In this document: one piece after another, positions 7,247 to 61,399 of the stretch
Numbering within the stretch: the first letter of the stretch is position 1
Layout: each line of letters starts with the position of its first letter
Source of the DNA: Candidatus Cloacimonetes bacterium HGW-Cloacimonetes-2
GTDB lineage: Bacteria; Cloacimonadota; Cloacimonadia; Cloacimonadales; Cloacimonadaceae
Assembly: GCA_002842035.1 (NCBI GenBank)
Contig: PHBP01000001.1
Span: 295,198-359,197 of the forward strand
Direction: 5' to 3'
Length of the DNA: 64,000 nt
Made by a program: the position numbers and the translations under genes
The notes under the pieces: generated by a model
Databases searched by the model: none
Seen by the model: the letters and a program-made list of their open reading frames with translations, nothing else
Told to the model about the DNA's origin: nothing

Positions 7247-7293
7247 CATCTTTCAGACAGTTTTCCCCATTCGGAGTAGCTGGTCTTCTTGAG

Positions 7294-7376
7294 ATCACCA
7301 GCAGATCAAGCCGAAATCAAGTCGAACGTGGTTCGAGGTGATTTCGGCTTGATTTGCTGATGATATGCTGTAGATC
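7294..7376. repeat. Intergenic palindromic repeat, copy 1
   Basis: Two arms of about 34 bases (7294-7327 and 7331-7364) are near-perfect reverse complements around a 3-base loop, with TCGAAC/GTTCGA at the tip and AATCAAG-type units in the stem. An outer box ATGCTGTAGATC follows at 7365-7376. Related copies lie at 44839, 53788 and 61160. It sits between the convergent ends of batE and rplQ. No open frame of note overlaps it. Confidence 0.9.
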
Positions 7377-22313: not shown

Positions 22314-22549
22314 ACCCTTTTTTTCGTAATGTTTTAATTATCTGAATTACCCTTATTCTGACACGCCCTGAATGCGACATAAGAAGGGCCCGGCATACAT
22401 ATCCACTGAAATTTTTTGGCAAAACCACCCGCTCAATATCTGAGGAGTGGTATCCACTAAAGGGGAGTGGAGAGGGTTTGGATCAGGTATATATGGCAAA
22501 ACTTAATGTTTCAGCTTATATTGATTACATAGCAACGAAGGAGTCATAT

Positions 22550-23404
22550 ATGTCTATTGATCCCAAGATTGTACTGGTCAAAAAGGCCTCTGGCCATACT
22601 GAAGCATTTGATAGCAAGAAGCTTATGAAGTCTCTCAGAAACGCCGGAGCAGAGCCGGAAGCTATTACAGAAGTGGTAACAGAGATCGAAGATTGGGTCT
22701 CCGATGGCGTCACAACCTCTCAGATTTACACCAGAGCCTTCAAGCTCTACCGGCAGATTAGTAGTTCGGGTGCATTGCTTTACAAACTGAAACAAGCTAT
22801 TCTTGAGATGGGGCCCTCCGGCTTCCCTTTTGAGCATTTTGTGGGTGAGATCTTCAAACGCCGGGCTTATGACGTGAAAGTGGGGCAAATCATAGAGGGA
22901 GCTTCCGTAAGCCATGAGGTTGATATCATCGCCAGAAAGGACAGAGAGTTGATCCTGGGTGAATGCAAATACTCCCACAAACAAGGATTTAGTGTCAGCG
23001 TCCAGGTTCCGCTTTATGTTCATTCCCGCGTGAATGATATTGTGGACAAGCTGAAAAAAGAGCCGCAATATAAAGGCTTCACATTTGTTCCCTGGCTCTT
23101 TACCAATGGACGCTTCACTCCCGATTCCACCCAATACAGCCACTGCAAAGGAATCAAGCTGATGGGTTGGGACTACCCGGTGGGACAATCGCTAAAAGAC
23201 CAGATAGAAAGAGAGAGGATTTTCCCGATCACGATCCTGAGCAACCTCAACAAAAGCCAGAAAAGCGCTCTATTATCGGAAGGAGTCGTCACTTGCAGCC
23301 AGCTTATGGATCAACCTGCCTGGTTGGAACGTTTGGGGCTAGATAAGGCAAGAAAAGCTGTCCTCAAAGAACTGGAGTCCCTGGCAGATGTATCTAAGCT
23401 ATAA
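22550..23404 (+). CDS. ATP-cone domain plus PD-(D/E)xK (Mrr-like) endonuclease
   Basis: 284 residues. The ATG at 22550 is chosen because AAGGAG lies 6 bases upstream; an in-frame start at 22478 has none. Residues about 7-88 form an ATP-cone (VLVKKASGHTEAFDSKKL), the nucleotide-sensing module best known from ribonucleotide reductases and NrdR. Residues about 93-210 are a restriction-endonuclease-like fold with D125 and E138-x-K140 (EVDII then GECK). The C-terminal ~50 residues look like a helical-hairpin DNA-binding segment (LNKSQKSALLSEGV). The fusion occurs in other bacteria but its role is unknown; a nucleotide-gated nuclease is inference. Confidence 0.75.
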   Translation: MSIDPKIVLVKKASGHTEAFDSKKLMKSLRNAGAEPEAITEVVTEIEDWVSDGVTTSQIYTRAFKLYRQISSSGALLYKLKQAILEMGPSGFPFEHFVGEIFKRRAYDVKVGQIIEGASVSHEVDIIARKDRELILGECKYSHKQGFSVSVQVPLYVHSRVNDIVDKLKKEPQYKGFTFVPWLFTNGRFTPDSTQYSHCKGIKLMGWDYPVGQSLKDQIERERIFPITILSNLNKSQKSALLSEGVVTCSQLMDQPAWLERLGLDKARKAVLKELESLADVSKL

Positions 23405-23545
23405 AGCTGACAAGCACCCACTTCACCAGAGCATACTCCCCAAATGCTACCAAGTAAGAGAGATTATTCTTGACATCAGGATACAGAGCCGTAAGCAGTG
23501 TGCCAAAGAGATGTAATCTCAAACAGAAAGCCTAGGAGCTACGAG

Positions 23546-23959
23546 ATGGAACCCGAAATTGTCAAAGCTGATCCTGTACTGCGAAGGAATTTTACCATAT
23601 TATCAGGGATCATAGTATTGGGGGCTCTAGCCCTAATATACTTCCTCAGTTCCTGGCTTCGCACTATAAGTTCGGAGGGTGATATCAAATCATTGCTCCG
23701 AATTCTCCAGATCTTACTGCCCGCAATGGCAATTATATCCATTCGCATATCCATCTGGATGATCAAACTAGCGCGAACGATCATTTCCGAAGCTGCCTAT
23801 CCTCCTCTGAATCAAAAAGTAATCAAAGACACCCCCAGAGTTTATGGGAAAGCCGCCTTGCAAAAGGCCTATATATTGATCGCCCTCGCCATCATACTCG
23901 TCCTCGGTACAGTATCTTCCTCTCTTCTTGCCTACCGAATCGCTGATTCTTTCATATAA
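23546..23959 (+). CDS. Small three-span membrane protein, unknown function
   Basis: 137 residues from the ATG at 23546, which has AGGAG 8 bases upstream; a longer frame from 23498 lacks a site. Three hydrophobic spans are visible (about 19-38, 54-73, 107-130). No family was recognised and no catalytic motif seen. It stands alone on the plus strand, with its end facing the convergent cyclase gene. Confidence 0.6.
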   Translation: MEPEIVKADPVLRRNFTILSGIIVLGALALIYFLSSWLRTISSEGDIKSLLRILQILLPAMAIISIRISIWMIKLARTIISEAAYPPLNQKVIKDTPRVYGKAALQKAYILIALAIILVLGTVSSSLLAYRIADSFI

Positions 23960-24021
23960 ACTACTGTAAATATATCGGATTTGGCACTTATACCCGATCA
24001 ATATCCGGTGCCTTAGTTATG

Positions 24022-25731
24022 TTACTCGGCAAAATCAACAAAGTACATCGGCATCCTGCCTTTGCCTTTGATTTCGATTTCTCCGCGTTCGATATAGGAG
24101 CAGATATCCTTGGTAAGATGATAGAAACCACCGGACACATTGATTTGCATTGCCAGCGACATTGATTCCATCCGGCTGGCAGTATTGACCGTATCTCCAA
24201 AGACATCGTAGATATACTTCTTGATCCCGACAATTCCTCCCACCAGTTCCCCGGCGTGCAAGCCGATTCTGATCTCCCACCGGTGTTCCGCCACCGCGTT
24301 GCGTTCTTTCAGGGATTGTATCATCCCCTTTGCCAGACGCAGCATTCGCTCAGCATTATCCTCTCTGGCAACAGGGAGTCCACAAACAGCCAGATAAGCA
24401 TCGCCAATGGTTTTGATCCGTTCGCAACCGTTCTCCTCTGCCAAGCGGTCAAAGATGGTAAAGATCTCGGAGAGTTCATTGATCAAGACTTGTGGATCGA
24501 GATTTGAGGAGAGAGATGTAAAGCCAACAATATCAGAAAAAAGTACGCTGACCGCTGGAAAAGTCTGCGCTTCGCTTTTACCCGTGCGTTTCAAATCATC
24601 GGCTACTTTTTTTGGCAGAATATTGAGCAGAAGCGCTTCGCTCTTACGTTTTTCTCGCACTATCAGCATCGTAGTTATCAGAATTAGTGCCAGAAAAGCG
24701 GACAAGCCAATCAGGATAATGCGTCCCTGCCTCACTTTGAGGCTCAAGACTGCATTCTCCAGTTCCTTCTTTTCAATCGCGAATTGAGTTTGCAGATTGG
24801 CGATGTTGCTGGCTGTTTCACTATTGGAAAGGCTATCTGCAATATCTGAATATGCTTTGTAATACTTCAGATGCATCAGCTCCTTGCCATCCTCTTCGTA
24901 GAGTGAGCTGAGGTTTAGCAAGGCATCGCGCTTTACTGCCATTGCCCGGGCCTGATCGGCCCTGCTCAAGACATCCAGATATTGCCTTTCAGCTAATTGA
25001 CGCCTGCCAAGTAGTTGATTTATATATCCTATAATCAGCAGATTGATCGCAGTCCTGTTCTTGTCGCCAAGTTCTTCATAGATTGCCATTGAAGCCTGGT
25101 TATAAGCCAAGGCTTTACCCAGATCGCCACTCAAGAGACTGTGATTTCCCAGATTGTTTAAAGAATGGGCGATCCCGATCCTGTGATTGGCTGTTCTGCT
25201 GAGTGCAAGAGCCTCATTAAAGAAGCTGAGAGCCTGCTCGGGCTGATCCAGAAAATGCAGACTTACGATACCTGAGCTGTTCAAAGCATCAGCCAATTCC
25301 TCAGCTGTTCCGTGACGTCTTCTCAGTTCTAGTGATATTTGATAATACTCTCTTACTTTCGCAGGATTTTGCAATCTCCAGTAAGTGTTTCCGAGTTGTT
25401 CGTAAGTATCCGCCAGATGACGGTAATCCCGTAAACTCTCATAAATTCGCAAGGCTTCCAGTGCCCTTTGGATTGCTTTGTCATAGATTCCTGTTTGGTG
25501 ATGAGCTTTTGCCAGGATCAATAGCGATCTGGCTTGGGCTAGTTCATTAGCTTCAGCTTTTGATACGCTCAGGGCAGAATCCGCAATCTGCATAGCTTCA
25601 GCCGTGGATACAGCCAGCCTCGCTTCCGCGCGCTCCAGCATAGAGCTAAGCTCCTTAGCTGGGCTTGCCCAAAGCAAAGTTATAAAGATGCACGAGATTC
25701 CAAAGGTTATAAGCTTGTGGTGCAGGCGCAT
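24022..25731 (-). CDS. Class III adenylate cyclase with periplasmic TPR domain
   Basis: 569 residues. A signal peptide or N-terminal span (about 8-24) is followed by TPR-type helices (about 60-300), a coiled stretch, one membrane span (about 338-359) and a cytoplasmic class III cyclase domain (about 390-565). Metal ligands D400 (VLFSDIVGFTS) and D444 (IGDAYLAV) are present. So are K440 and D509 (YDVFGD), which specify adenine, and N516/R520 (NTASRMES), which act in catalysis. The protein should therefore make cAMP in response to a ligand bound by the outer TPR region. The neighbours do not indicate the signal. Confidence 0.9.
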   Translation of the reverse strand: MRLHHKLITFGISCIFITLLWASPAKELSSMLERAEARLAVSTAEAMQIADSALSVSKAEANELAQARSLLILAKAHHQTGIYDKAIQRALEALRIYESLRDYRHLADTYEQLGNTYWRLQNPAKVREYYQISLELRRRHGTAEELADALNSSGIVSLHFLDQPEQALSFFNEALALSRTANHRIGIAHSLNNLGNHSLLSGDLGKALAYNQASMAIYEELGDKNRTAINLLIIGYINQLLGRRQLAERQYLDVLSRADQARAMAVKRDALLNLSSLYEEDGKELMHLKYYKAYSDIADSLSNSETASNIANLQTQFAIEKKELENAVLSLKVRQGRIILIGLSAFLALILITTMLIVREKRKSEALLLNILPKKVADDLKRTGKSEAQTFPAVSVLFSDIVGFTSLSSNLDPQVLINELSEIFTIFDRLAEENGCERIKTIGDAYLAVCGLPVAREDNAERMLRLAKGMIQSLKERNAVAEHRWEIRIGLHAGELVGGIVGIKKYIYDVFGDTVNTASRMESMSLAMQINVSGGFYHLTKDICSYIERGEIEIKGKGRMPMYFVDFAE

Positions 25732-25817
25732 ACTACCTCCCTCAGGAGATTATAGATACACTCACAGGAAGATATATCCCACCTTAGATCAAAATTCTAT
25801 ACATCAACGCAGTATGC

Positions 25818-26261
25818 TTACCACATTGACAGCGGGCTTACATCTCCATAGTAGTTTATGTAGTCCTGAATCTCATCCATCAGTTCATTTGGATCCATAT
25901 CCCGATAATCTGAATCATCGAAATTGCTACGGATTTCACTTACCGGGATTTCCACTACAAAGTCCTGATATTCTGTTGACCAGGCAGCAGCAATGGAATC
26001 AATCCCACTGACCCAGCTATTAGCGGAAGAATAAGTCTCCCAGCCTTCACGGGCATAGAGCACAAGCACTGAAGCCCAGGCAACATAGCCATATGCGCTG
26101 CTTTCGCTATCCAGAAAGTCCTTGCCCACCAGCACGGTATCTCCCTCGTGATCAATGATGTCGCTATCAGAGCGCAATTCCGATAGAGCTCCATTGAGAT
26201 TCTCCGCCAATAGAGCTACTCCGATTATGACCAAAATCAAAATCAATACAAGTTTTTTCAT
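25818..26261 (-). CDS. Small exported protein, unknown function
   Basis: 147 residues. The signal peptide is clear (MKKLVLILILVIIGVALLA). The mature part is acidic (many Asp, Glu and Ser) with a Trp/Tyr-rich centre (EGWETYSSANSW). GAGG lies about 8 bases before the ATG, and a second AGAGG lies very close to it. I recognise no family. It lies upstream of the cyclase gene on the same strand, with an 86-base gap, and could share a function with it; this is not shown. Confidence 0.6.
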   Translation of the reverse strand: MKKLVLILILVIIGVALLAENLNGALSELRSDSDIIDHEGDTVLVGKDFLDSESSAYGYVAWASVLVLYAREGWETYSSANSWVSGIDSIAAAWSTEYQDFVVEIPVSEIRSNFDDSDYRDMDPNELMDEIQDYINYYGDVSPLSMW

Positions 26262-26529
26262 ATCCTCTACCTCATTTTTTCGGTTTGCGGCAGACTAATC
26301 AGTAGCTCTCTGCTTGGCAAGAATTTTTTGAATGCATTACTAAGATTGTGTGGAAAAGCATCGAAGTTCCAGCCTTCGAGCGCCACAATCCCTATGCCCA
26401 CAATGCAGTCTTAGTTCATTCGTCTATGTCTCAAATCTGCTAAGCAAAATATGCAATCTCTTAAACACCTTGGTCGCAAAATCCAAGCCCTATTGGTTAA
26501 TGGTACTTTTCGAGAAAACCGCGGACTGA
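26262..26529. other. Non-coding gap before the prophage remnant
   Basis: No gene, ribosome site or strong hairpin was found. It lies upstream of the first recognisable phage-like coding fragment and may contain the left boundary of the decayed prophage. No integrase gene or attachment repeat could be identified by eye. Confidence 0.4.
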
Positions 26530-26664
26530 GCTTGCACGGATCCAATTCCCTGCTATAAACTGATCCTCGATGGCTGTGATGCACTGGCAGGATGTCTGGA
26601 ACGTTTCTCGGAATATGATATTGGCAGGAATAGAGTCAAAGTCCGGAGGCTTGTACCAGCGTAG
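26530..26664 (+). pseudogene. C-terminal fragment of an upstream phage gene
   Basis: A 44-codon open segment without a start reads as plausible protein (LILDGCDALAGCLERF, then RNRVKVRRLVPA) and ends in TAG 14 bases before the head-morphogenesis remnant, the spacing expected of consecutive phage genes. In Mu- and SPP1-like phages the preceding gene encodes the portal protein, so this may be its tail, but the fragment itself is not diagnostic. A perfect 7-bp inverted repeat (TACCAGC/GCTGGTA, 26654-26671) covers its end. Confidence 0.35.
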
Positions 26665-26678
26665 GCTGGTATCCACTT

Positions 26679-27553
26679 ATGAACTACTATGATCAGCTGA
26701 TGCTTGAGTACTATAGGGTCTTGAATAATGCCTGGAAAACCGAGATCAGAGATGCTACCCGGCTTGCCATCCAGATGTTGAGTGACACGCCCCGAGCCGA
26801 GAAGATTAACAAGGACTCCATATATAAGCTTATGGGCATCATCAATACCCAGTTGGGAGATAGGTCGCGGCACTGGTCAATGAGCCCACCAAGGCGATAA
26901 TAGACCGCTGTGTGCGGCTTGGGCTCAAGGATGTCCAAGTGCAAGCCCCAACTAAGACCAGCATCGGACTCTGGGGCATCGAAGATCAGCATCTCTCAAC
27001 CACCATTCAGAAGCAGCAGTTGTTCTGGATCGGCAACCACTTTGAAGCAGACGTCAGGCAGAGCTTCGCAGACACCCTCTCCAAAGCCATCGAGCAGGGC
27101 TATACCAAAGAAATGCTTGCCGATACCCTCAAAGACCAGTTCAATGACCTCGCCAACCGCTCATCCCACTACTGGCAGGGACTTGCAGAGCATACAGCTC
27201 TCAGAATACGTGAGTTCGGCAGGCTGCAAGGTTATAAAAAAACGAAAGCCAGATACTACAAGCTCTTGGTGATCCTGGATGACCGTACAAGCGATATATG
27301 CCGGGCTCTTGCTTCCCAGGATAAGGTCTATCCTCTAAACGATGCCCTGGAAGTGATGGATAATCTGATGGCTCTGGATACCAAGTCCAGTAGCCTGGAT
27401 GATGCCCGGGAATACATTAAAGCACTCGCCCCATGGGTCAAAGACGATCAGATCGATTATGACTCAGAAATGAATCCAGTCGGTGTCTCCGGAGCGCATA
27501 CTCCATTCCCACCTTTTCATTGGAAGTGCCGGACTACAACAGAAATCTGTTAG
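26679..27553 (+). pseudogene. Phage head morphogenesis protein (Mu F / SPP1 gp7-like), frameshifted
   Basis: The N-terminal part (26679 to about 26862, MNYYDQLMLEYYRVL...) and the C-terminal part (about 26864-27553) are in different frames. The second frame reads AALVNEPTKAIIDRC immediately after the break, so a single small indel near 26862-26870 explains it. The C-terminal half carries the family features: long helices, the segment LLVILDDRTSDICRALASQD, and the metal-ligand-like PFPPFHWKCRT end. The intact protein would be about 290 residues. It acts in capsid assembly and DNA delivery in phages. The frameshift marks the prophage as defective. A sequencing error is an alternative. Confidence 0.75.
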
Positions 27554-28136
27554 CTGTTTCCTTCCTTCTAAAGGGAAGTTTACCTTCAAGCCAATCTTCA
27601 AACATTACATAGGTTTTGTTATCTTTTTTTACCCAGAGCGTGCTTTTTTGGGTACCCATGATTGTGTTTTTAGTAACATAACAGTAAAGCCCTAAAAACT
27701 CTAGTCCAATGTATGTTTCAGTCGAGATTAACGACTCAGAAACAGGAAGGACTGCCGCTAGCCCTCCCTTAGCCCCGTCTGCATACCCTAATTCCCAAGG
27801 CATCCACTTAGAGTCTACGGAGTTTTCAGTTGTAACATATATTAAGCATCTGCTTGAATCTATACGATTTCTAATCAAATCCGCAGTGTCCGGCTTGACG
27901 TTTGTTCTATCTAATTGGGGATCATCAATCCAATCAACATATATAGAAAACCCCATGTCTTCAATAATTCGCTTAATTTTTAAAATCATTTTTGCGTCTC
28001 TATATGAATGAGACAAAAATATATCATAACCTTCCTCGTCGAATGAGGCTGCTTCTTTAATGAGGACTTGTTCCGCATCAAGTATTGACTTCTTAACTTG
28101 GTACTCATTGATCTCAGATTTCTTAAACAGAGGCAT
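27534..28136 (-). CDS. TIR domain protein (second TIR of the defence operon)
   Basis: 200 residues. After an N-terminal helical stretch (1-34) comes a TIR domain: YDIFLSHSYRDA (37-48), IYVDWIDDPQLDR (65-77) and SKWMPWELGYADG (109-121), with the putative catalytic glutamate at E115. TIR domains with this Glu hydrolyse or cyclise NAD+. AAGGAG lies 5 bases before the ATG. The gene is 52 bases downstream of the caspase gene on the same strand and ends the defence run. Its 3' end overlaps the convergent phage gene by 20 bases. It may be a second signal producer for the caspase, or an NADase effector itself; the sequence does not decide. Confidence 0.85.
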   Translation of the reverse strand: MPLFKKSEINEYQVKKSILDAEQVLIKEAASFDEEGYDIFLSHSYRDAKMILKIKRIIEDMGFSIYVDWIDDPQLDRTNVKPDTADLIRNRIDSSRCLIYVTTENSVDSKWMPWELGYADGAKGGLAAVLPVSESLISTETYIGLEFLGLYCYVTKNTIMGTQKSTLWVKKDNKTYVMFEDWLEGKLPFRRKETANRFLL

Positions 28137-28188
28137 TACATCTCCTTAATGACTGCATAACATAGTAATATGATATAGGAATGTATAT

Positions 28189-29133
28189 TCAAATCTTATT
28201 CGATTTTACTATTTTCCAATACTGTGCACCAAGTGCTGTTAATTTGCATGATTTAGTGTTGATTGCAGCATAGTACATGTGTTCTTCATCAACCGGTTTT
28301 ACTAGCCCGACGCTAACCATTTTTTGTAGTTCTTTTAGCATTTTTGCATTGTCGGGATTAAACCCAGGAACAGTATCCTCGAATGTTGGGTCTAATTTGA
28401 ATTCATCATAGATTGATTGGAAGTAATCTGTTAATTTTCTTAGTAACGATGTTTCTATAGGTGGAGCAACATTACGTATTGATATAAAACTCGAGATGTT
28501 GGTTTTGAACATCGGTCTCTGTTCCCATTCTCCTAGAGCTCGATCAATAAACGCGTAAACACTTCCAGGGGATATGTGTCCAATTAAGTCAGCACATTGC
28601 CCGCCCAAAGCTTCAATCAACAGTGATGTAAACACTCCATGTCCATCAGATTCCATAGCAACCTCATTGTCTCTACATGCAGCCAGAATTGTAACTCCAT
28701 CTGCAACTTCGGCAATTTTGCTTGTATGCCCATCTGGATTTCCGATTTTACCTGAATAGCAACAATCAAGAATAATAATTTTATGTCTTGCTTTTGAACT
28801 ATTGCACATCTTCATTATTTCATCCATTGAAACCCCTTCATCGTACCTTGTAAAGTCCGGAGTAACAATGTACCCTCCGTATGAGTTTATGCATCCATGA
28901 CCAGAAAAATACAATAAAGCTGCTTCAGAATCTGTGGCAAACAATTCTTCAATCTTCCTCTTGAGAAATGCTCGATTTACAACGCTCGCATCAGTAAAAG
29001 TTCTAACGTCAAAATTCGGTGAGCCATCCGCGTTCCTCTCAAGGAGTTGATGCATGCTATTGGCATCTTTGACGCAACCACTTAATGGGCAACCCGTGTA
29101 GTCATCAATTCCAATGATAAGTGCCTTTTTCAT
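28189..29133 (-). CDS. Caspase-like protease (C14 family), likely TIR-activated effector
   Basis: 314 residues. N-terminal caspase fold (about 1-225) with the catalytic dyad His79 (YFSGHG) and Cys125 (LDCCYSG), plus the typical start KKALIIGIDDY. The C-terminal ~85 residues (KMLKELQKMVSVGLV to LTALGAQYWKIV) look like a winged helix. The AGGAAG ribosome site overlaps the stop codon of the small TIR gene 9 bases upstream, so the two are translationally coupled. In the reported type IV Thoeris systems a TIR enzyme makes a cyclic ADP-ribose-type signal that switches on a caspase-like protease, which then kills the infected cell; composition and order here fit that. Activation here is inference. 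Confidence 0.85.
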   Translation of the reverse strand: MKKALIIGIDDYTGCPLSGCVKDANSMHQLLERNADGSPNFDVRTFTDASVVNRAFLKRKIEELFATDSEAALLYFSGHGCINSYGGYIVTPDFTRYDEGVSMDEIMKMCNSSKARHKIIILDCCYSGKIGNPDGHTSKIAEVADGVTILAACRDNEVAMESDGHGVFTSLLIEALGGQCADLIGHISPGSVYAFIDRALGEWEQRPMFKTNISSFISIRNVAPPIETSLLRKLTDYFQSIYDEFKLDPTFEDTVPGFNPDNAKMLKELQKMVSVGLVKPVDEEHMYYAAINTKSCKLTALGAQYWKIVKSNKI

Positions 29134-29142
29134 TATAACTTC

Positions 29143-29559
29143 CTACAATGAATACTGCCTAATTGCATCAACGATGGACTGAGTATTCCATTTAACAATT
29201 GTGTTAGCATTAGACTTAACGATTGTTGAGGTTTTCTCTGAAGCCCATGGCTCGATTGCAATTACAGGTTTATTGAAGTCTTGTTTGGCGATTTTAATCT
29301 CTTTATCAATCCATTTTGAATAAGTAGCATAAACTCCAGCAAGAATTAATACGCAGTTTACTGGACGGATTTGAGATTTTATTGCCTCATATAATTCACT
29401 GTCTGTCCGTACATTATGAACAGGATCTTCTTTGGGTACAGAGTAGTTTGCATATTGGAAAAACGGTGCACTATTGAGCATAGACACTAATTTCTCGTAA
29501 GCATCACCGTAGTTCCACGAGTGGCTTATAAAAAGCCTATAAGTAAACAATTGTGGCAC
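29143..29559 (-). CDS. ThsB-like TIR protein (DUF1863 / MTH538-type)
   Basis: 138 residues, a single TIR domain with no extension. Start is GTG with a perfect AGGAGG 5 bases upstream. Features: YRLFISHSWNYGDAYEKLV (8-26), NCVLILAGVYATYSKWIDKEI (split around 68-88) with the catalytic glutamate E87, and KPVIAIEPW. This short TIR type is the one found as ThsB in Thoeris, where it senses phage and converts NAD+ into a cyclic signal. It is followed 9 bases later by the caspase gene, which makes a TIR-signal/caspase-effector pair likely. The product of this enzyme cannot be read from sequence. Confidence 0.85.
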   Translation of the reverse strand: MPQLFTYRLFISHSWNYGDAYEKLVSMLNSAPFFQYANYSVPKEDPVHNVRTDSELYEAIKSQIRPVNCVLILAGVYATYSKWIDKEIKIAKQDFNKPVIAIEPWASEKTSTIVKSNANTIVKWNTQSIVDAIRQYSL

Positions 29560-29594
29560 GTTTGCCTCCTTTTGACCATTTATTGAATTGCATG

Positions 29595-30968
29595 TTAATC
29601 CAACAAGTAGGTGGACTTGATTGTAGACATAATCACATCATCAGGCACTTTAATTTGTTTGAAGAGAAGTACTTCGAATAATATGCGTACCTTTTTATAC
29701 AACTCATACAAATCGTATCCATTTGCTGCTGAGAATTCTAGTTCTTTCGTGAAATGAGTATACCAGTTTCTTGAATTGACAATCTGGTTCACGTCATAAG
29801 CGATATCCAAATCCAATATCTGAGAAATGACTTCCTCATTTTCTTTGAATAAAAGTTTTAGCGATGACCTTAGAGTACGCTCATTAGAATATTTTGTGGC
29901 ATTTTTTAATCGTTCAATATAGTCTTGGTTCTCATGGTCGGTAAGATACTCTGAAATATAACGAGTTAGAGGATTATTGTACTTACAGTTAAACTCATCT
30001 TTATCGAAGAAATAGTGGTTTTCGTAAACGTATCTCGAAAAGGACTCCACAGAATAAACAGCAGAAAGGAATTGATACTCAAGTATGGCATCAAACTTAA
30101 TGATTGCCAGATAATTGGAGACTATAACTCGATAGTTTCCTGCAAAAACCATAAAATTTCTAATATAGTCCTTTAGTTCTGGCATCATGTTTCTCAAACA
30201 TTGCATTTTGTTAGATACTATATCTTTATGCTTATTGAAGTATCTGTAGAACACATCAAATTGGTAAGGTCTAGATTCGAACAGTATTTTTACCGATAAC
30301 CTAATTGGGCATAGGTAATGACCAATGAGTATGGAAAAAAAGGCTCCTATACTATTATCAATAAGTTTCAACCAATCTAAGATTCCAATAACAGACGTAT
30401 GTCGTAATTCAATCAAAGTAACTGGGGAAAATTGCGCGGTCGATAGATATGATGAAAACGAACTATCAAACACATAATTGAATCGACATGACAATGAATC
30501 GGTTAAGCTAAAAGAATCATCTGCTGAAGTATACTTGCAGTAATAGCTCTGGGGTTTTAAATCATGACCATGATCAATAGAGCATGTTCCTAAATATTGG
30601 GGCAAGTTATCAAATGAGAAGGTTATATTACTAAACTGCAAATCACTCTCATCGCCAATCAGAATAGGACCTGTGAATATTGTACAGTCGATAAAGTAAC
30701 AATAAGTGTCATCGAAAGATACAGAGTGGAAACTAGTTTGCAGCAATGCAAGTCCCTCCCCACTTCTTAATTGACCGACAATCAGGGAGTGCTGCATTCT
30801 CTTGAAGTGTTCGTTGCAGTATGTAGCCCTGTCAATTGTTGGATCTATAACAGCGTACAAGGTAAGAAGCCCTAATGCTTCATTAATTAGCTCAAAATCT
30901 CCATCTACTTTATGATCAGGGGATTGAGGAAGCCAAAACTCCCCTCTTTGCTTAGTAAACCTGCTCAT
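29595..30968 (-). CDS. ApeA-like abortive-infection protein with C-terminal HEPN domain
   Basis: 457 residues. The HEPN RNase motif R-x4-H is visible at R400-H405 (RNWYTH) in a helical C-terminal domain (about 290-457). The N-terminal ~250 residues are beta-rich and resemble the ApeA N-terminal domain (WLPQSPDHKVDGDFE, then the repeated short-strand pattern). ApeA is a single-gene anti-phage system whose HEPN domain is thought to cleave RNA. The gene is AT-rich compared with the restriction gene upstream. It begins 31 bases after that gene and ends 35 bases before the small TIR gene, so it lies in the same transcription unit. The ribosome site is weak (AAGG). N-terminal family assignment is tentative; the HEPN call is firmer. 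Confidence 0.65.
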   Translation of the reverse strand: MSRFTKQRGEFWLPQSPDHKVDGDFELINEALGLLTLYAVIDPTIDRATYCNEHFKRMQHSLIVGQLRSGEGLALLQTSFHSVSFDDTYCYFIDCTIFTGPILIGDESDLQFSNITFSFDNLPQYLGTCSIDHGHDLKPQSYYCKYTSADDSFSLTDSLSCRFNYVFDSSFSSYLSTAQFSPVTLIELRHTSVIGILDWLKLIDNSIGAFFSILIGHYLCPIRLSVKILFESRPYQFDVFYRYFNKHKDIVSNKMQCLRNMMPELKDYIRNFMVFAGNYRVIVSNYLAIIKFDAILEYQFLSAVYSVESFSRYVYENHYFFDKDEFNCKYNNPLTRYISEYLTDHENQDYIERLKNATKYSNERTLRSSLKLLFKENEEVISQILDLDIAYDVNQIVNSRNWYTHFTKELEFSAANGYDLYELYKKVRILFEVLLFKQIKVPDDVIMSTIKSTYLLD

Positions 30969-30999
30969 TAACCTTACACCATCCCGTATCTCAATGTTT

Positions 31000-33513
31000 T
31001 CACCTCACTTCCACAAACACTTTTTCCAGATCATCATGTTTTAGCACAGTGTCATAGAGTCCAATATCTTCACCTTGGTGTTTGTTAACACCGGTGTAGT
31101 TCAGGCTGGCATCCTCATAACGCTTGAACTTGTAGATAGCATCGTTCATCAGCGCGCTATTGAAGAGTCCCAGGCTCACCAAGAGCTCAAAATCTTTTAC
31201 TGTGAGTCCGGTTACCTTTTTGAACAAGCCCGGCTCCAATTGGGTGATCACATCTTTGAGGGAGCGCTCACGATAGTCCGTGAGATACATAAAGATGGGG
31301 ATGCGCGTGGCAAATTTGATCAGTTTCTCTTGAATCTGCTTACGTTTGGCTTTGAACTCTTTTTCGGTATCGCTAAGCTCTTTCTTCTCTTTTGGGCTCA
31401 GCTCATCTTCACTCTTCTCTTTACGAGTTTTCTTTACCGCCTCGCTCTTATTGATGATGGTCTCAATATCCTGATTCAAATTGCGAAAGCCTTCGATGCT
31501 CATCAGGGCTGTCATCGCGGCTTCGCTATTCATCACCCGTTTCAGGGTATCGTTATCCACATTCACCAATAGGGCGGATTCCCATCTGCGGGCAAGTAGC
31601 GTGGCCGTGGTTCCGCTCATGGCCATATCCAGTATCCCCGCGGCATCGATCTCTTTCATGCTGCTGCCATCGTAAGCGAGCACGGGCAGGAACTTGATGA
31701 ATTCCTCCACCTTTTGCTCAGCGCTATCGCCATTTACGTTTAAGCGGCAGCTATAATCCGCAATTTGCCGCAGAGCTCTATCCGGCGCAAAATCGAAGAC
31801 ATAGCACTCTTCTTTGATGATCTCTTCCTTGTTTGGCGAGAGCCCATCGGGATTGATGATGGTCCAGGGCGATTGCACGCGGAAGGCGGCCTGAAAATAT
31901 GTCTCCGGACTGCTGGTATTGCGCAGCATAAAGATCCCCGTCCAGGGCTTCACGGTAACCCCTGTGGTCAGCTTCCCGCAAGAGAGAGTGATGCTTTTGC
32001 TATTTAGGGGATCGCCCATGGCATCCATCACCGGAGGCAGTGCCGCGGCACCAATCCCCGCTCTGGGCCCCGCTGCCACGATGACCTCATAATCGTGATA
32101 AAACTTGTTTTGGCGTTTGCTCAAGAGATTCTTCATGGCATAGCAGCCGGCCACCGAGGGCAAGAACCAAAAGGTGTGCGACAATATGCCCAAAAGCCGG
32201 ACATCCGAGAATGGCAATGGCGGCTTCTGCGCGCCCAGTTTGAGATTATCGATACTACTGGGCAGAAAAGCACCACGGATCAGATCCAGCCATTTCTGAA
32301 CCTCGGCTTCATAGAGAAAGCGGGCCTTATCCCCCAAGCCCTCAGCCGCAAAGAAGACGTTGAGATCAAACTCATCAAATTCTCCCTTCTTGGCGATATC
32401 GATGATCGCTTCCGGCAATTGGTAGGTGAGCATCACCATGCGCGGCAAAGCGGCATAGGGATTATCCATGCCCACCCAGCTTTCCTTGGTACCTTGTTCA
32501 TCACTATAAGTCCAGTTAAAGATCTGCTCTTCGATGAATTCCCCCGTGGCAATAGCCCGGAACGGAGTGCCGGAAAGATATAGATAGTGCTCTGTGGTGA
32601 TGGGCAGGATGTCCTCATCATAGTATTCGATGCCCTCGCCCTGCGCGTAAGCCTGCTCGCGGGAATCCTCGCTTTCAAAGAGGTCTTTGGCGTTTTCCCG
32701 CCAGGCCCCGTAGTGATATTCATCAAAGATGATTACATCCCAATTTAGCGAATGCACCCATTCATTCTTGGTCTTGATCCCTCCCGTGCTTTTGTTTTTG
32801 CCCAGATAATCCTGAAAGGAGCCAAAACAGACAAAGGGACGCTCCCGATCGATCTCCTCAATTGCCAGGCCTCCGGGTTTGATGAATTGCCAGCCCTCAA
32901 AATCAATGTGACTACTGAGATCCTCTTCCCAGGCGCTTTGCACCGCGGGCTTGAAGGTGAGCACCAATACCCGCTTCCAGCCCAGTCTCTTTGCCAGTTG
33001 ATATGCGGCAAAGGTTTTGCCAAAACGCATCTTGGCATTCCACAAAAAGCGGGGAGGTTGCCCTCTCTTGGCGGGGTCTGTGTACCAGGATTTGTAGTAA
33101 TCCATCGTTCTTACCACCGCTTCCGCCTGCTCCGGCCTCATGCCAAAGCTCTGGCTGCGGTTGAACTCCAGCAGTTGCCCCGTCCTCACGGCATGGATGG
33201 CGCTTCTGAGCTGCTTCAGATCACACTCAAACCATTCCCCGGCTGGATTGGCAATGCCATTGTACTTTAGCATGCGATGCACATCATGATCCGTGAAACT
33301 GCTCCCATCCCCGCGCATGGCAGGCTCGGAGAGCACAATCCGGTATGGTTGCCTGCCCGGCCGCTTGGTGGGATATTGCTGTGCTACCCGCTCTTCCACA
33401 CTGCGAGTGGTAAAGCCAACCTTTAAGAGTCCTTTGTAGTCAGGATTCGTGTCCTCATAAGCATAAATCCGGGGATTTAGCTCCGGGCGGGAAGGGAAAT
33501 ATTCTTTAGGCAT
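31000..33513 (-). CDS. Restriction protein: GIY-YIG-like nuclease domain fused to SF2 helicase
   Basis: 837 residues. N-terminal GIY-YIG/T5orf172-type domain (about 14-112; IYAYED ... GLLKVGFTTRSVEERV). SF2 helicase core with Walker A variant MRFGKT (162-167), motif II DEYH (264-267), LSGTPFRA (motif III region) and a C-terminal RecA-like half (ITLSCGKLTTGVTVKPW, FQAAFRVQSPW). A Glu/Lys-rich linker lies near 690-730. Such proteins are the DNA-translocating and cutting subunits of restriction-modification systems paired with Eco57I-like methyltransferases, as here: it overlaps the methyltransferase gene upstream by 8 bases. GC content is visibly higher than in the ApeA/TIR genes that follow. 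Confidence 0.85.
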   Translation of the reverse strand: MPKEYFPSRPELNPRIYAYEDTNPDYKGLLKVGFTTRSVEERVAQQYPTKRPGRQPYRIVLSEPAMRGDGSSFTDHDVHRMLKYNGIANPAGEWFECDLKQLRSAIHAVRTGQLLEFNRSQSFGMRPEQAEAVVRTMDYYKSWYTDPAKRGQPPRFLWNAKMRFGKTFAAYQLAKRLGWKRVLVLTFKPAVQSAWEEDLSSHIDFEGWQFIKPGGLAIEEIDRERPFVCFGSFQDYLGKNKSTGGIKTKNEWVHSLNWDVIIFDEYHYGAWRENAKDLFESEDSREQAYAQGEGIEYYDEDILPITTEHYLYLSGTPFRAIATGEFIEEQIFNWTYSDEQGTKESWVGMDNPYAALPRMVMLTYQLPEAIIDIAKKGEFDEFDLNVFFAAEGLGDKARFLYEAEVQKWLDLIRGAFLPSSIDNLKLGAQKPPLPFSDVRLLGILSHTFWFLPSVAGCYAMKNLLSKRQNKFYHDYEVIVAAGPRAGIGAAALPPVMDAMGDPLNSKSITLSCGKLTTGVTVKPWTGIFMLRNTSSPETYFQAAFRVQSPWTIINPDGLSPNKEEIIKEECYVFDFAPDRALRQIADYSCRLNVNGDSAEQKVEEFIKFLPVLAYDGSSMKEIDAAGILDMAMSGTTATLLARRWESALLVNVDNDTLKRVMNSEAAMTALMSIEGFRNLNQDIETIINKSEAVKKTRKEKSEDELSPKEKKELSDTEKEFKAKRKQIQEKLIKFATRIPIFMYLTDYRERSLKDVITQLEPGLFKKVTGLTVKDFELLVSLGLFNSALMNDAIYKFKRYEDASLNYTGVNKHQGEDIGLYDTVLKHDDLEKVFVEVR

Positions 33514-35050
33514 CGATTAAATCCAATATATTGTCTTGGTATTCAACTGATTTGATTTTGGAATCTATAAACTCCCATTCTTCGTCCGTGATTCCCCATC
33601 GTTCCCTTAGTATGTCATCTGTATATGTTACATTATATAAGCCAATGTCTGGGACAAACATAAAGTTCTGCCTGGTTACATGTTGAGAAATTACAGCTTG
33701 CAACAATAGGAATCTGACTATTTTTGTGAATAAGTATGATTTATATGAATCTACTTCTTTTTTAGTATCCAAAGCACAAGCAACTATCCACGATTCAGTA
33801 CAGCATTCGCCAGGTTTGGCAATTCGCGTGTTTCCATCATAGTAAAAACCAACAGGCTTCGAAAAATCGGTCTGTCCTGCTATCGGTACGTGTGGTAATA
33901 ATAGCTTCCATTTATCTAGCAGAGACTTTTCATCTTTAACATCATCCTCGTGAGCGAATTGCAAACCAATGCGTTGAATAAACCAACAAGGGATACCCTT
34001 CTTCTTCGGAGGATAATTCGTTGGTAGACCAAAAGGTTTTCTGGACGATACTCTTTCACTCAGCATGGCTCCATTGTTTTCGTTGTGAGAAAGGACTTTC
34101 TTCACAATGGATAACGCTCTGCTCTGCCTTATCAATACAGGATATTCGTTTAACACTCTCTTTGTCGTGACACTTGAATCTTTGGTATGATTAGTCATTT
34201 CGCATTGACCTGCATAATCTCTATCCCACAAGAAATAGCATATTCCCCCGGCTACATCTACACCGGGGAACACATCAGAACTATTTTCGAAATCGGATAA
34301 AGCCCTGATCCTTGTATCAGATAGCATTTTATTCCTGAATTCATCAAGACCCTTTCCCCCAATGTACCATCTTGCAGGAATGATCATACATAAGAATTTT
34401 GGACTCAACTTCATAGCCTGATCAACGAATCTATTATAGATTGGGGATGCACTTCTTCCGTGCCCCCCATCACTCATCTGATAAGGTGGGTTTCCGATAA
34501 TAACGTCAAATTTCATTTTGAATAAGTCCTCCGGATTTTCGGTGTGGATAAAGGAATAGGCATGGCTTTCCCGCTCTTCGCCGCGGTCATAGCCTTGTTC
34601 ATTGGCTCCGCAGAAGAGGCAGCGTCCGTTTTGCCATGTGTGTTCGATGCGGGTGTAGTGGATGTTTCCGCTTTCGCTTTTGAACTGAGAGCAGACGGAG
34701 TATTTGCCATTGGCGGCTTTACTGCAATATAAGGAGCGGCGGGAGAGCAAGCTGGTAAGCCGGGTGATGGCAAGGCCAAAAAGCTGTTTGGTAAAGATGT
34801 GATCGATGCGTTTCTGGCGGTCCGGGATCTGAGCTTCCAGGCCTATATCCAGGCGTTTGGCGATTTCGCGCAGGAAGACGCCGGATTTGCAGGCGGGATC
34901 CAGAAAAGTGCTGCTTTTGTCTCGGAATAGCTCTTGGGGCAAAAGATCCAGCATTTGGTTCACCAGCTCAGGCGGGGTAAAAACCTCGTCACTGCTCAGG
35001 TTTGCGATGCAGGACAATACATCGGGGTTGTAGCTATGATCAGTAAGCAT
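33506..35050 (-). CDS. Eco57I-like N6-adenine DNA methyltransferase
   Basis: 514 residues from the ATG at 35050, with GGAG about 9 bases upstream; a longer frame to 35152 lies inside the preceding gene. SAM motif I-like FLDPACKSGVFL (49-60) and catalytic NPPY (187-190) are present. Cysteines near 109-147, including CLFCG (C144/C147), may bind zinc. The C-terminal ~320 residues should hold the target-recognition domain. That part is clearly more AT-rich than the N-terminal part, with the shift close to 34520. The protein should methylate adenine and protect host DNA from the neighbouring restriction protein. Confidence 0.85.
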   Translation of the reverse strand: MLTDHSYNPDVLSCIANLSSDEVFTPPELVNQMLDLLPQELFRDKSSTFLDPACKSGVFLREIAKRLDIGLEAQIPDRQKRIDHIFTKQLFGLAITRLTSLLSRRSLYCSKAANGKYSVCSQFKSESGNIHYTRIEHTWQNGRCLFCGANEQGYDRGEERESHAYSFIHTENPEDLFKMKFDVIIGNPPYQMSDGGHGRSASPIYNRFVDQAMKLSPKFLCMIIPARWYIGGKGLDEFRNKMLSDTRIRALSDFENSSDVFPGVDVAGGICYFLWDRDYAGQCEMTNHTKDSSVTTKRVLNEYPVLIRQSRALSIVKKVLSHNENNGAMLSERVSSRKPFGLPTNYPPKKKGIPCWFIQRIGLQFAHEDDVKDEKSLLDKWKLLLPHVPIAGQTDFSKPVGFYYDGNTRIAKPGECCTESWIVACALDTKKEVDSYKSYLFTKIVRFLLLQAVISQHVTRQNFMFVPDIGLYNVTYTDDILRERWGITDEEWEFIDSKIKSVEYQDNILDLIDA

Positions 35051-35732
35051 TTGCAAGCTCCAAAAAGTGGATTGGAGGGTAATCCTTTTCCGGTGTGGGG
35101 ATATACACTTCTTCGCCTTGATCCGAGATGTAGGAAAAAAGCTCAAGTTCACCTAGTGATTCATTTTGGATCATGCTATGAAATGTAAAATCCCTTCTTT
35201 TGATCAGGCTGCCATTGATGGGAGACCATTCTGCAAACACAATGTAGCCCGGACGCTCACCCACGGTCATCAGCGATAGAGCGTCACCCCATACGATGTT
35301 GCATGAAAGGATATAATCGACGGACTCGATACAAGCGGCTTTGCAATCTTCAGCATATAATGCCTTGTAGTATTCATCCAGGAATATTGCCGCCAATCGC
35401 TGCCTGCATTCCTGAACATTGTCTTCCTGGACGTCGATGCCGTAGATGGATGATACAGCTATCACAGCGTTTCGTTCAAATTCAAACTGGGATTTGCGAT
35501 AGCGTCTTTTTACCACATCCAGCTTGCGTCTGAGGATTTCTGAAAGGAAGTTGCCGGTACCGCAGGCTGGCTCCAGAAAACGGGATTCGATGCGCTCTGT
35601 TTCCTGTTTCACAAGGTCGAGCATGTCATTTACTTCTCTCTTGGATGTAAATACTTCGCCATGATCCGCTACTCGCTTTCGAGACTTTACTTGTGATATA
35701 TTTGGAGTTATTTGTTCGTTATTACTTCCCAC
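35040..35732 (-). CDS. Companion methyltransferase-like subunit lacking the NPPY motif
   Basis: 230 residues, GTG start overlapping the upstream gene by 11 bases. SAM-binding motif I is strong (RFLEPACGTGNFL, 51-63), followed by SIYGIDVQEDNVQECR, but no (N/D)PPY catalytic motif exists. The end (GYIVFAEWSPINGSLIKRRD) matches, from memory, a conserved companion protein in this R-M type rather than a truncated enzyme. The 3' end overlaps the full methyltransferase gene by 11 bases (ATGCTTACTGA), so the two products are probably made together and may form one complex. Confidence 0.7.
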   Translation of the reverse strand: MGSNNEQITPNISQVKSRKRVADHGEVFTSKREVNDMLDLVKQETERIESRFLEPACGTGNFLSEILRRKLDVVKRRYRKSQFEFERNAVIAVSSIYGIDVQEDNVQECRQRLAAIFLDEYYKALYAEDCKAACIESVDYILSCNIVWGDALSLMTVGERPGYIVFAEWSPINGSLIKRRDFTFHSMIQNESLGELELFSYISDQGEEVYIPTPEKDYPPIHFLELANAY

Positions 35733-36834
35733 AAGCTACCCCTTTGGCTGTATGCGAGAAGCCAACTGTTAGGTCTTTAACTGGATCAAAGCCTGCAGCT
35801 TGCATTGCTTTTCTTGAGTGTCTTACCATGTCTGATGCGCCCAAATTACTTTCGGTAAAGTACCCATCATCAAGAGTTAATGCAGCTCTAAACTCCGTTT
35901 TATCTTTAGAATATCTGAATGATCCGGATATTTGAAAACTGGGCTTGTGCTTGATGATATAGTTGTAAACTGCTCGTTTCACTTCATGCCAATGTCGAGT
36001 TTCAATCTTTTCTTTTCCACATAAGATAATGTGATGTACTTTAGTGAAGCGGTAGTCTTTGAGTGGCTCAGTATGAATCGCAGGATCATCGTCTTTAGTA
36101 CCATTGCCCAGATTAGAGTGTTTTATGCCGGACTGTTTTCTATCCCAAAGGCGTTCTATATCAGCTATTTCTATATCCAGCTTATGGTTCTTCTTTATAA
36201 GCTGCTGTGCAAATAGATAAGGGGAGAGGTCTGTCTTCTCGTGCATATTGATCGCTTCAGCTTTCACGCTGCCGATCAGCTTAATGCGAACCAGTTCATT
36301 ACGCATGTCTTCTGCTGTATTGAGTGCTTTTTTGCGGTAGTTTTCCTTCTTCAGGATCATCTCAAAGGTTAGCGCTACATCATCGGGATCATCTTCCAGG
36401 ATATTGAGTTCATTGAAGAGTTTGTCTTCAAATTCACCTCCGGCAGAGGGAAGGTAGAATCGCCACTTGATCCCATCGGTAAGGATGCTGATAGCAGATT
36501 TGTGATAGGCATTGTAAAGGTGAAGCTGAGTCTCTCCGGCTATGAGGTCAGAATCCAGCTTTCCTGGGGTCTTTACTTCGATAAAGACTTCTGCTCCCTC
36601 TGAGGTCTTCTCCGGAATGAACAGTGCTACATCCACGCGACCTGTTACGTCCTTGGTGATATTCTGTTGGGGTAAACGCTTTACCCTATACTCTGTGTAA
36701 AACTCTTCAGGATTCCAGATGTTCCATCCAAGGGCTTGGCATAGCCTGCCTACCAGAGAAAAGCGAACATGCTGTTCGTCCTTAAATGTTCCGTCTTTCA
36801 GTAAAATACAAATATCTTCAACAATCTGTTTCAT
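35722..36834 (-). CDS. HsdR N-terminal-type PD-(D/E)xK restriction nuclease
   Basis: 370 residues from the ATG at 36834, with GAGG 5 bases upstream; an in-frame ATG at 36912 has no clear site. Residues about 10-140 match the HsdR-N fold: FSLVGRLCQALGW, D68 in GRVDVALF and E86-x-K88 in FIEVKTPGK, the PD-(D/E)xK catalytic set. A helical central part and a C-terminal domain (about 260-370) follow. There is no helicase domain. It is the first gene of the 8-gene minus-strand run and could supply nuclease activity to the R-M module. Confidence 0.75.
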   Translation of the reverse strand: MKQIVEDICILLKDGTFKDEQHVRFSLVGRLCQALGWNIWNPEEFYTEYRVKRLPQQNITKDVTGRVDVALFIPEKTSEGAEVFIEVKTPGKLDSDLIAGETQLHLYNAYHKSAISILTDGIKWRFYLPSAGGEFEDKLFNELNILEDDPDDVALTFEMILKKENYRKKALNTAEDMRNELVRIKLIGSVKAEAINMHEKTDLSPYLFAQQLIKKNHKLDIEIADIERLWDRKQSGIKHSNLGNGTKDDDPAIHTEPLKDYRFTKVHHIILCGKEKIETRHWHEVKRAVYNYIIKHKPSFQISGSFRYSKDKTEFRAALTLDDGYFTESNLGASDMVRHSRKAMQAAGFDPVKDLTVGFSHTAKGVACGK

Positions 36835-36960
36835 TGATGCCTCACAGCCAGATTTGTGTTTTCCACAAGGAATTGTAAAGATGATATCTGTCAACCCTAA
36901 AATCTGTCGCATCCTTATGCATCCTTATTTGTAAGAATACCGGGGGCTGCTTTCATTGCG

Positions 36961-43692: not shown

Positions 43693-44568
43693 ATGATGAG
43701 GATGAAAAAAACAATGAGAGCGATTATACTAATAGCAAGCCTGGCATTGGTCTTTGGATTTATCTCCAGAAACGATCCGGCACCGCGTATTTATAGAGTC
43801 CAATCCCCCGAGATTGATGAATGTTCCGGGATGGCATCATCTCGCCTAAACCGCGATCTGCTTTATACCGTTAACGATTCAGGTGGTCAATCTATAGTCT
43901 ATGCACTGGATACACAGGGAAACTTGCGGCATAGAATAGCGCTGCGGGGAACGCAAAATCGAGATTGGGAAGGTCTGGCTATTGGTCCGGGTCCACGCTC
44001 AAACACCTCTTACATCTATGTCGGCGAGATTGGCGACAATAGTGCAAGATATGGCGAGATATATGTTTATCGCTTTGCCGAGCCAAATCTAAGCCAGGCA
44101 GACAGCCTGGTAAGCGTTGACACGGTAGATACCTTGAGTATCGTTTTTGAGGACGGCCCCCGGGATGCTGAAGCCCTGATGGTCGATCCTAAAACCCGCG
44201 ACATTGTGATTATATCAAAGCGTGAAGCTTCCGTGGGTGTCTATCTAATACCTTATCCACAAAGTACTCAGAGTGTCAATACAGCCCGCAAGGTTGCAAC
44301 CCTACCCCTTAGTTGGGTCACCTCATGCGATATTTCGCCCAATGGTCGTACGATCCTGGTCAAAACATATACCAATGTTTACAAGTTTAAACGCGGGAGA
44401 AATCAAAGCCTTTCCCAAGCGTTCGGTGGCAAACTCAAAGCTCTGCCTTACGAGCTGGAACCCCAAGGGGAGGCAATTTGCTTCAGCTCCTCCGGACGTG
44501 GCAGATACACCCTCAGCGAGCGCGCTCAGGGCAAGGATTTGCATCTGTACTTTTACCGCAGAAATTAG
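43693..44568 (+). CDS. Exported beta-propeller-like protein
   Basis: 291 residues. N-terminal signal or anchor (about 8-24), then repeated blade-like strands: SGMASSRLNRDLLYTVNDSG, GLAIGPGPRSNTSYIYVGE, DAEALMVDPKTRDIVIISKR and EGEAICFSSSGRGRY-type segments. The acidic DAEAL and (D)WEGLAI motifs resemble SMP-30/phytase-like propellers; substrate unknown. The start is uncertain among ATGs at 43693, 43696 and 43702, none of which has a well-spaced ribosome site. No operon partner. Confidence 0.65.
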   Translation: MMRMKKTMRAIILIASLALVFGFISRNDPAPRIYRVQSPEIDECSGMASSRLNRDLLYTVNDSGGQSIVYALDTQGNLRHRIALRGTQNRDWEGLAIGPGPRSNTSYIYVGEIGDNSARYGEIYVYRFAEPNLSQADSLVSVDTVDTLSIVFEDGPRDAEALMVDPKTRDIVIISKREASVGVYLIPYPQSTQSVNTARKVATLPLSWVTSCDISPNGRTILVKTYTNVYKFKRGRNQSLSQAFGGKLKALPYELEPQGEAICFSSSGRGRYTLSERAQGKDLHLYFYRRN

Positions 44569-44838: not shown

Positions 44839-44922
44839 GATCTACAGCATATCACCAGCAAATCAAGCCGAAATCAAGTCGAACCGGGTTCGAGGTGAAT
44901 TCGGCTTGATTTGCTTTTGATC
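44839..44922. repeat. Intergenic palindromic repeat, copy 2
   Basis: Begins with the box GATCTACAGCAT (44839-44850), then arms ATCACCAGCAAATCAAGCCG... and its near-complement around the tip TCGAAC-C-GGGTTCGA. The right arm diverges at its outer end. Lies between two plus-strand genes; 44923-45150 downstream holds no other recognised element apart from the start region of the next gene. Confidence 0.9.
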
Positions 44923-45171
44923 TGCTCCTGATCAAAGGAGGTCGATTAGAGATTTTAAACGTAGATGAGTAAATATGCCCTAATCCAGATCGATAGAGCT
45001 TCTTTTGACAATCTTCAGTAAGCTACAATTTTTTCCTTTACAAGTTCTGGTGATTACAATAACTTGCAAAATGGAAGTGGAGTCGTTAAAAACTCCCAGT
45101 ATATCGTGTTTTGCACGGTCATCTTCGGATGATCAGTTATAGTTCAGTCTCAAAAAACCAAGGAGAATGCA

Positions 45172-53722: not shown

Positions 53723-53787
53723 GTTACAAGAGTCTGGATATTAAGTAACGAGACAGGTATGCCCTGGTTCCTATAGGGCATCTGGAT

Positions 53788-53870
53788 ATCACCAGCAGAT
53801 CAAGAGCAAATCAAATCGAACGTGGTTCGAGGTGATTTCGACTTGAATTGCTGGTGATCTGCTGTAGAAC
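53788..53870. repeat. Intergenic palindromic repeat, copy 3
   Basis: Arms 53788-53821 and 53825-53858 around the tip TCGAAC-GTG-GTTCGA, followed by the outer box CTGCTGTAGAAC. More mismatches than copies 1 and 4, so probably older. Lies between the convergent ends of the giant secreted protein gene and phnC. Confidence 0.85.
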
Positions 53871-61159: not shown

Positions 61160-61243
61160 GATCTACAGCATATCAAGAGCAAATCAAGAGCAAATCACCT
61201 CGAACCCGGTTCGACTTGATTTGCTCTTGATTTGCTCTTGATA
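61160..61243. repeat. Intergenic palindromic repeat, copy 4 (reverse orientation)
   Basis: Box GATCTACAGCA (61160-61170), then arms of about 35 bases (61171-61205 and 61209-61243) that differ only at two central positions. The stem is made of tandem AGCAAATCAAG units; the tip is TCGAACCCGGTTCGA. The asymmetric central mismatch is on the opposite side relative to copies 1-3, so this copy is inverted. Flanks 60969-61159 and 61244-61399 hold no other recognised feature. Confidence 0.9.
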
Positions 61244-61399
61244 TCCAGTTGACTAAGCTGAGAGTATAGAGAGAGAACAGTCATCCTGGCTGATAGGAAA
61301 TTTGTCCATAGACGGATGGATATTATGGACGTGATGGACTACAAGCTGGACGCTCACACCATCTCGTCACTTGTATCAGCGCTACTGATCACTGATCAC

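Follow-up and report, generated by a model that had tools for sequence, protein, structure and literature searches.

The window, that is, the whole stretch of 64,000 nucleotides analysed here (positions 295198-359197 of contig C2 of the source genome, a draft of 14 contigs and 2,507,010 bases), contains four long imperfect palindromes, which form its longest repeat family in a window-wide repeat comparison and raise the question of what such elements are doing between genes. A preceding sequence-only reading had placed all four copies correctly and had taken a mismatch kept at the same position near the tip as a sign of a recognised, folded structure rather than of simple terminators; the 11-bp architecture, the additional families and the common spacing described below lay beyond its reach.

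The core of these palindromes, designated here as family A, covers 93 nt and consists of four 11-bp modules per arm around a 5-nt centre, the two halves being inverted; the tip is the innermost module of an arm, and the strand sign of a copy is that of the orientation placing the CC tip at the left. Copy 1 (7283..7375 of the window, minus strand), delimited by the covariance model and located between convergent ORFs, can be written in elevens, with the left modules at 7283-7293, 7294-7304, 7305-7315 and 7316-7326, the centre C-GTG-G at 7327-7331 and the right modules at 7332-7342, 7343-7353, 7354-7364 and 7365-7375, its tip mismatch (span 7320..7338, no strand assigned) being AG at 7320-7321 facing GG at 7337-7338. 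Copy 2 (44840..44932, minus strand) lies between the ORF 43693-44568(+) and a 2831-aa ORF at 45172-53667(+), copy 3 (53777..53869, minus strand), having AA facing GG at the tip, is positioned downstream of the latter, and copy 4 (61161..61253, plus strand), with the CC tip at the left, is found between two minus-strand ORFs. In terms of modules, the left arm of copy 2 reads ATCTACAGCAT, ATCACCAGCAA, ATCAAGCCGAA and ATCAAGTCGAA, followed by the centre CCGGG and the right arm TTCGAGGTGAA, TTCGGCTTGAT, TTGCTTTTGAT and CTGCTCCTGAT. The outer box ATCTACAGCAT does not track the orientation of the tip, since it represents one variant of the outermost module and may occur on either arm: copies 1 and 3 have it on the right, copies 2 and 4 on the left. 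The opposite orientation ascribed earlier to copy 4 thus holds for its tip but not for its outer box. Beyond the modules, the average over 116 half-elements exhibits a weak extension of ~20 nt, pyrimidine-rich on one side (in copy 1 the left flank, 7262..7282, no strand assigned) and purine-rich on the other, the conservation fading gradually with no sharp terminal inverted repeat.

The 2831-aa ORF, a secreted-type repeat protein with family A copies on both sides, ends with ~95 residues that resemble the C-termini of many proteins in the source genome and in its relative G011, like a sorting domain. The palindrome-free stretch of 37 kb between copies 1 and 2 corresponds to a SecY-containing gene block and a defence-island-like block (22478-36912), the latter with an Mrr-type nuclease, a TPR-cyclase, a caspase-like peptidase, an ApeA HEPN protein, a helicase with T5orf172, an Eco57I methylase and an HSDR_N protein.

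Over the whole 2.5-Mb draft, the covariance model recovered 58 distinct full-length copies, the weakest at 55.8 bits, and no further ones down to E 0.1, and a 23-nt half-site pattern yielded 146 matches versus 0 for the reversed control. Since the model scores drop cleanly and the control is empty, family A is not a product of chance, and the genome-wide count establishes the four palindromes as members of a real family. None of the 58 copies is decayed, and neither solitary half-sites nor an autonomous parent element were found on contig C2. All 58 are intergenic—none lying inside an ORF as called by a simple ORF caller—with 20 between convergent, 23 between co-directional and 14 between divergent genes, and one of undetermined context.

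Concerning the mismatch near the tip, the two tips are unlike in 44 of the 58 copies (43 AG/CC and one AA/CC) and like in the remaining 14 (12 AG/AG and two CC/CC), against 28.4 unlike pairs expected from random pairing, a value of 44 being attained in 0 of 20000 shuffles. The imperfection seen in the window is thus non-random throughout the genome, although it is not absolute. The same applies to G011, a closed relative of one contig (2,246,820 bases, starting with dnaA), where the tips are built from the unrelated words ACGG, GCTA, ACTA and their variants, and match in 0 of 44 elements versus 13.6 expected. With unlike tips prevailing in both genomes, the "conserved mismatch" is therefore better described as the avoidance of a symmetric centre, for which there is a sufficient reason: bacteria do not stably maintain long perfect palindromes, and an asymmetric centre makes cruciforms harder to form. 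The 3-nt loop starts with C in 35 of the 44 copies oriented by their CC tip, the family A elements therefore possessing a polarity.

The idea of a recognised folded structure fared worse. Compensatory changes between the two arms of family A are in no excess over shuffles; the variable positions of the left and right arms are independent or even anti-correlated, as the tips are. The arms that do not covary speak against selection for a paired stem and favour a duplex reading over a hairpin, and recognition as a hairpin or RNA, with no Rfam family matched in the window at the curated gathering score either, was rejected.

Family A is not alone in the source genome. A scan for palindromes with the best lag of 11 revealed six further word families, B-G, the words of which are TGATCCCCTAG for B, AGATTCCCGGG for C, TGTGAATCCCC for D and GTGGGAGAATC for E. 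Genome-wide there are 76 copies of B, 13 of E and seven of D (six by pattern and one by the scan); since the counts of E and D rest largely on fixed patterns, and those of C, F and G cover only part of the genome, the 154 sites of A, B, D and E together represent a lower bound. The scan returned 0 palindromes in 1.5 Mb (strict) and 1 Mb (relaxed) of third-order Markov sequence as well as in 100 kb of E. coli. The families prefer different contigs—A being characteristic of C2, C6 and C9, B of C1, C11, C14, C4 and C13, and E of C3 and C8—with a chi-square of 182 (0 of 20000 permutations). It should be noted that a mixture of two genomes is an unlikely source of this pattern because the completeness is high (99.55%), the contamination low (0.54%), and the two families are interspersed on C5, C6, C9 and C14. 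The first 40000 positions of C2, at the contig start, are of low GC (0.42 versus 0.48) and bear no family A site.

The strongest single result is that elements of different families keep apart from one another. Family A alone leaves no gap below 5 kb (P about 1e-4 on C2 when intergenic positions serve as the null), and the 154 sites of A, B, D and E taken together have a single gap below 4 kb, 34 being expected under uniform placement. Using rotations, a null that preserves the spacing inside each family, cross-family pairs closer than 4 kb number one versus 11.4 expected (0 of 3000 rotations); on C2, all families taken against intergenic positions, there is one such gap versus 9.8 (P<1e-4; for the coefficient of variation, CV, P=0.0017). 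The sites on contig C5 follow one another in the order A,B,A,B,B,B,A,B,B,A in steps of 6-15 kb, and those on C3 in the order E,A,E,D,B,A,E,A,E,D. In G011, the 84 sites of two families show 0 gaps below 9 kb versus 23.8 expected, with 0 cross-family pairs within that distance versus 14.1 expected (P=0.0008). The median spacing is 11.5 kb in the source genome and 18.4 kb in G011. Elements of unrelated sequence therefore behave as one class.

A search of 97 relatives, two of them congeneric, found the exact words of family A in none except for one 4-kb contig of G039; this contig matches C2 at 98.6% identity over 2.6 kb, carries the same site and is therefore probably mis-binned. A family A copy was seen also in L096 (950-974; IMG/VR 3300005804_000102), a contig classed as viral that matches contig C12 of the source genome at 99%. 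In a strain 98.6% identical, the site is kept in place on JAQVMI010000243.1 (L093), its loop triplet and adjacent flank diverging more than the DNA around, suggesting a fast local change at that site. Pattern matches in Acidisoma and Streptomyces lack modules and look like chance.

The architecture, on the other hand, is shared by most of the relatives sampled, so that the circumstance that would have spoken against the original proposal—just four copies, with none in relatives—turned out to be half true, for the words. Relatives were represented by orthologous regions and bulk samples, most of them of 60-160 kb, and the majority of their strong palindromes with an internal period have a period of 11, the exceptions including 15-bp repeats in G021 and classic REPs in G002. 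The two families of G011 are CATTGCTTACC (44 sites) and GTAACACTTCC (40 sites); the same architecture is carried by GACTCTTCACC in G001, by CAGGCACGCTT and CATACCGCTTG in G002, and by TCATTACGGAC and TTAATCAAGCG in G010, the last word being shared across genera with G016, where it is TTAATCAAGCG-like. G005 has two families and G019 at least four, mixed within 80 kb at about one site per 11 kb. In samples of 60-80 kb, no 11-bp palindromes were present in G004 and G021, and G009 offered one weak case, a TGATCCCCTCG-like word resembling family B; in the other families of the order, sampling turned up three AT-rich matches of low complexity and nothing else. The relatedness of module words does not clearly differ within and between genomes (6.2 versus 5.9 matches).

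Positions are conserved between genomes only weakly. Among orthologues on C2 of genes neighbouring G011 sites, 5 of 13 also adjoin a C2 site, versus ~2.3 expected, which is not significant, and the sites of G001 are mostly at other places than those of the source genome. The word territories are not general since the two G011 families interleave (36 like neighbours versus 41.6 expected). On either side of one 11-bp palindrome of G011 (L151:967-1193 and 1536-1850), there are REP-like arrays with an 88-nt period (GTTCCGTAGGAACGACAG...), and many other sites of G011 have comparable arrays nearby.

Based on these observations, the reading preferred here, with a probability of roughly 0.47, is that the palindromes would be spaced, protein-binding duplex arrays serving as marks or anchors on the chromosome at intervals of ~10-15 kb and spreading by copying of the element as such. 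Each element would serve as a landing array in double-stranded DNA, with four 11-bp modules per side, about one helical turn each, facing the centre, and a protein or a related protein family would contact successive modules from a single face of the helix. New copies would arise when the unit of ~95 nt is copied without its flanks, and those too near any other array would not be kept, so that one array per ~10-15 kb would be left between genes all along the chromosome, serving to space it, to anchor it or to bound its domains. Under this reading, selection rather than immunity would cause the spacing. What the families and genomes have in common is the grammar—11-bp modules, inverted halves, a centre avoiding perfect symmetry and mutual exclusion—the words being different. 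An architectural role is favoured because arrays of helical-turn modules suit side-by-side binding and because the spacing is similar to the size of supercoil domains, the diffusible ones in bacteria being of ~10 kb (PMC3420936). A wider formulation, held with less assurance and below even odds, is that any pair of inverted 11-bp-module arrays may count as a site whatever its word, Cloacimonadota chromosomes being partitioned by the grammar with one exclusion distance (~4-5 kb in the source genome, ~9 kb in G011) into a chromosome-wide lattice, the words of which would turn over between species and label territories in the source genome. Against an architectural role stand the weak conservation of position, the absence in G011 of the word territories of the source genome, the draft state of the latter, the samples of G004 and G021 free of such palindromes, and the fact that, in the manner of mobile elements, the families are private to genomes and have been copied from locus to locus.

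This last point leads to the main and serious rival, considered less probable than the preferred reading, in which the palindromes are MITE-like non-autonomous elements without a host function, i.e. back-to-back transposon ends whose 11-bp modules are sites for the transposase, some enzyme other than a RAYT, and which are spaced by target immunity. Tn7, Mu and other transposons showing target immunity have repeated end-binding sites and spaced insertions, and both features find a likeness here. The words private to each genome, several families per genome, and words common to different genera (those of G010 and G016, and the one in G009) would all suit mobility. So would the near-identical copies at unrelated loci with the similarity stopping near the edges of the unit: the copies at C9:18606 and C9:28960 are alike in all but 1 of the 93 core positions and have one flank in common but not the other, and further pairs of similar copies, located far from each other, agree in the unit and in neither flank, which suggests copying at the level of the element. 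Given the constraint on family A, convergence could also account for the more divergent pairs; rare words in common (ATCAAGTGGAG) speak for copying or conversion, and the similarity of nearest-neighbour copies is borderline (P=0.049). The sharp terminal inverted repeats and target-site duplications expected of MITE/DDE elements were, however, not observed: the best z of 3.8-4.1 among about 2700-2900 tests per genome did not exceed the scan noise for duplications, although some enzyme types need no clear duplication. Neither decayed copies nor solitary ends nor an adjacent transposase were seen, and immunity specific to ends does not predict exclusion between unrelated words or an overall density that is similar whichever words fill the set. 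In the small sample of two sites seen in other strains (L093 and L096), both are occupied. The mobile reading thus explains the privacy of words and the copying better than an architectural site does, and the cross-family exclusion, the lack of decay and the missing element ends worse.

Far less probable are bidirectional transcription terminators or mRNA-stabilising hairpins. Long stems are possible, and convergent junctions are preferred on C2, where a family A site occupies 12 of the 32 convergent junctions versus 19 of the 298 others (Fisher P=3.5e-6). The 14 copies between divergent genes do not fit such a role, and just 3 of the 64 gene 3' ends facing a site are within 30 nt of it, the median distance being 124 nt, so that the claim of the sequence-only reading that these are not simple terminators was upheld. 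The arrangement of an intrinsic terminator, a GC-rich hairpin with a T run just after the stop codon, was not found, no T-tract follows the palindrome at any of the four window copies, the arms lack compensatory changes, and terminators would not exclude one another over 4-9 kb.

The least probable candidates, REP/REPIN elements moved by a RAYT with the tip mismatch as a bulge read by the enzyme in single-stranded DNA, fail in size, foot order, RAYT flanking and stem compensation and were rejected. They share with family A a dispersed intergenic location, imperfect palindromy, tens to hundreds of copies per genome, genome-private sequence and, in some families, a stem mismatch, as in the conserved functional bulge of E. 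coli REPs (PMC8266576); GTAG is, in addition, present in many outer modules. The sole Y1_Tnp match of the source genome (C2:456445-456648) belongs to a RAYT-like ORF of 228 aa (C2:456376-457062, i.e. L060:16376-17062, minus strand) located between two DNA-methylase ORFs. The RAYTs described in the literature invariably lie between copies of their REPs (PMC2817692), whereas this one is bracketed by its own GTAG-type 188-nt repeats with the REP-like motifs GTAGGAGCGACATCCTGTCGC and GGTCCGTCATCCTGACGGAC, the nearest family A copy being 1.8 kb off; the RAYT association proposed for the palindromes was thus not borne out. Unlike REPs, BIMEs and REPINs, the palindromes are 93-103 bp long (versus 20-50), are made of 11-bp modules, do not cluster as BIMEs and join several word families in one exclusion zone; their feet, (A/G)TCTAC at the 5' and GTAGA(T/C) at the 3' side, reverse the REP arrangement, many copies having neither.

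Among other known systems, ERIC sequences are intergenic palindromes of ~100-130 bp and thus similar in size, but their sequence is a single one, conserved among enterobacteria, and lacks 11-bp modules. In the 11-bp direct-repeat arrays of plasmid R1 parC and the Pho boxes, the modules are likewise one helical turn apart and bound side by side; these are, however, single loci or promoters, whereas here there are inverted arrays at about 154 chromosomal sites. The matS sites of the MatP system in the E. coli Ter macrodomain, 23 in 800 kb (PMC3330122), resemble the present ones as tens of dispersed palindromes, like protein sites, that mark a region at a spacing of tens of kb; the patterning expected of such sites is seen here as exclusion in both genomes and as contig-specific families in the source genome. 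In contrast, matS is one 13-bp word confined to Ter, and here putative arrays of ~100 bp use many words over the whole chromosome. No description of such palindromes in Cloacimonadota was found in the open-access literature, and the distances kept between palindromes of unrelated sequence suggest an undescribed kind of chromosome-spacing site.

If the mobile reading were true, the palindromes would represent a new class of element, with a family-independent spacing still in need of explanation. The preferred reading as spaced protein-binding arrays matters in that evenly spaced, chromosome-wide systems of sites are hardly known in bacteria, matS covering one macrodomain, and the sequence basis of the ~10-kb topological domains is unsettled. 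An array readable from sequence every 10-15 kb would allow the hypothesis of sequence-encoded domains to be tested directly, and the fast turnover of words would offer a remarkable example of a DNA-binding protein co-evolving with its sites.
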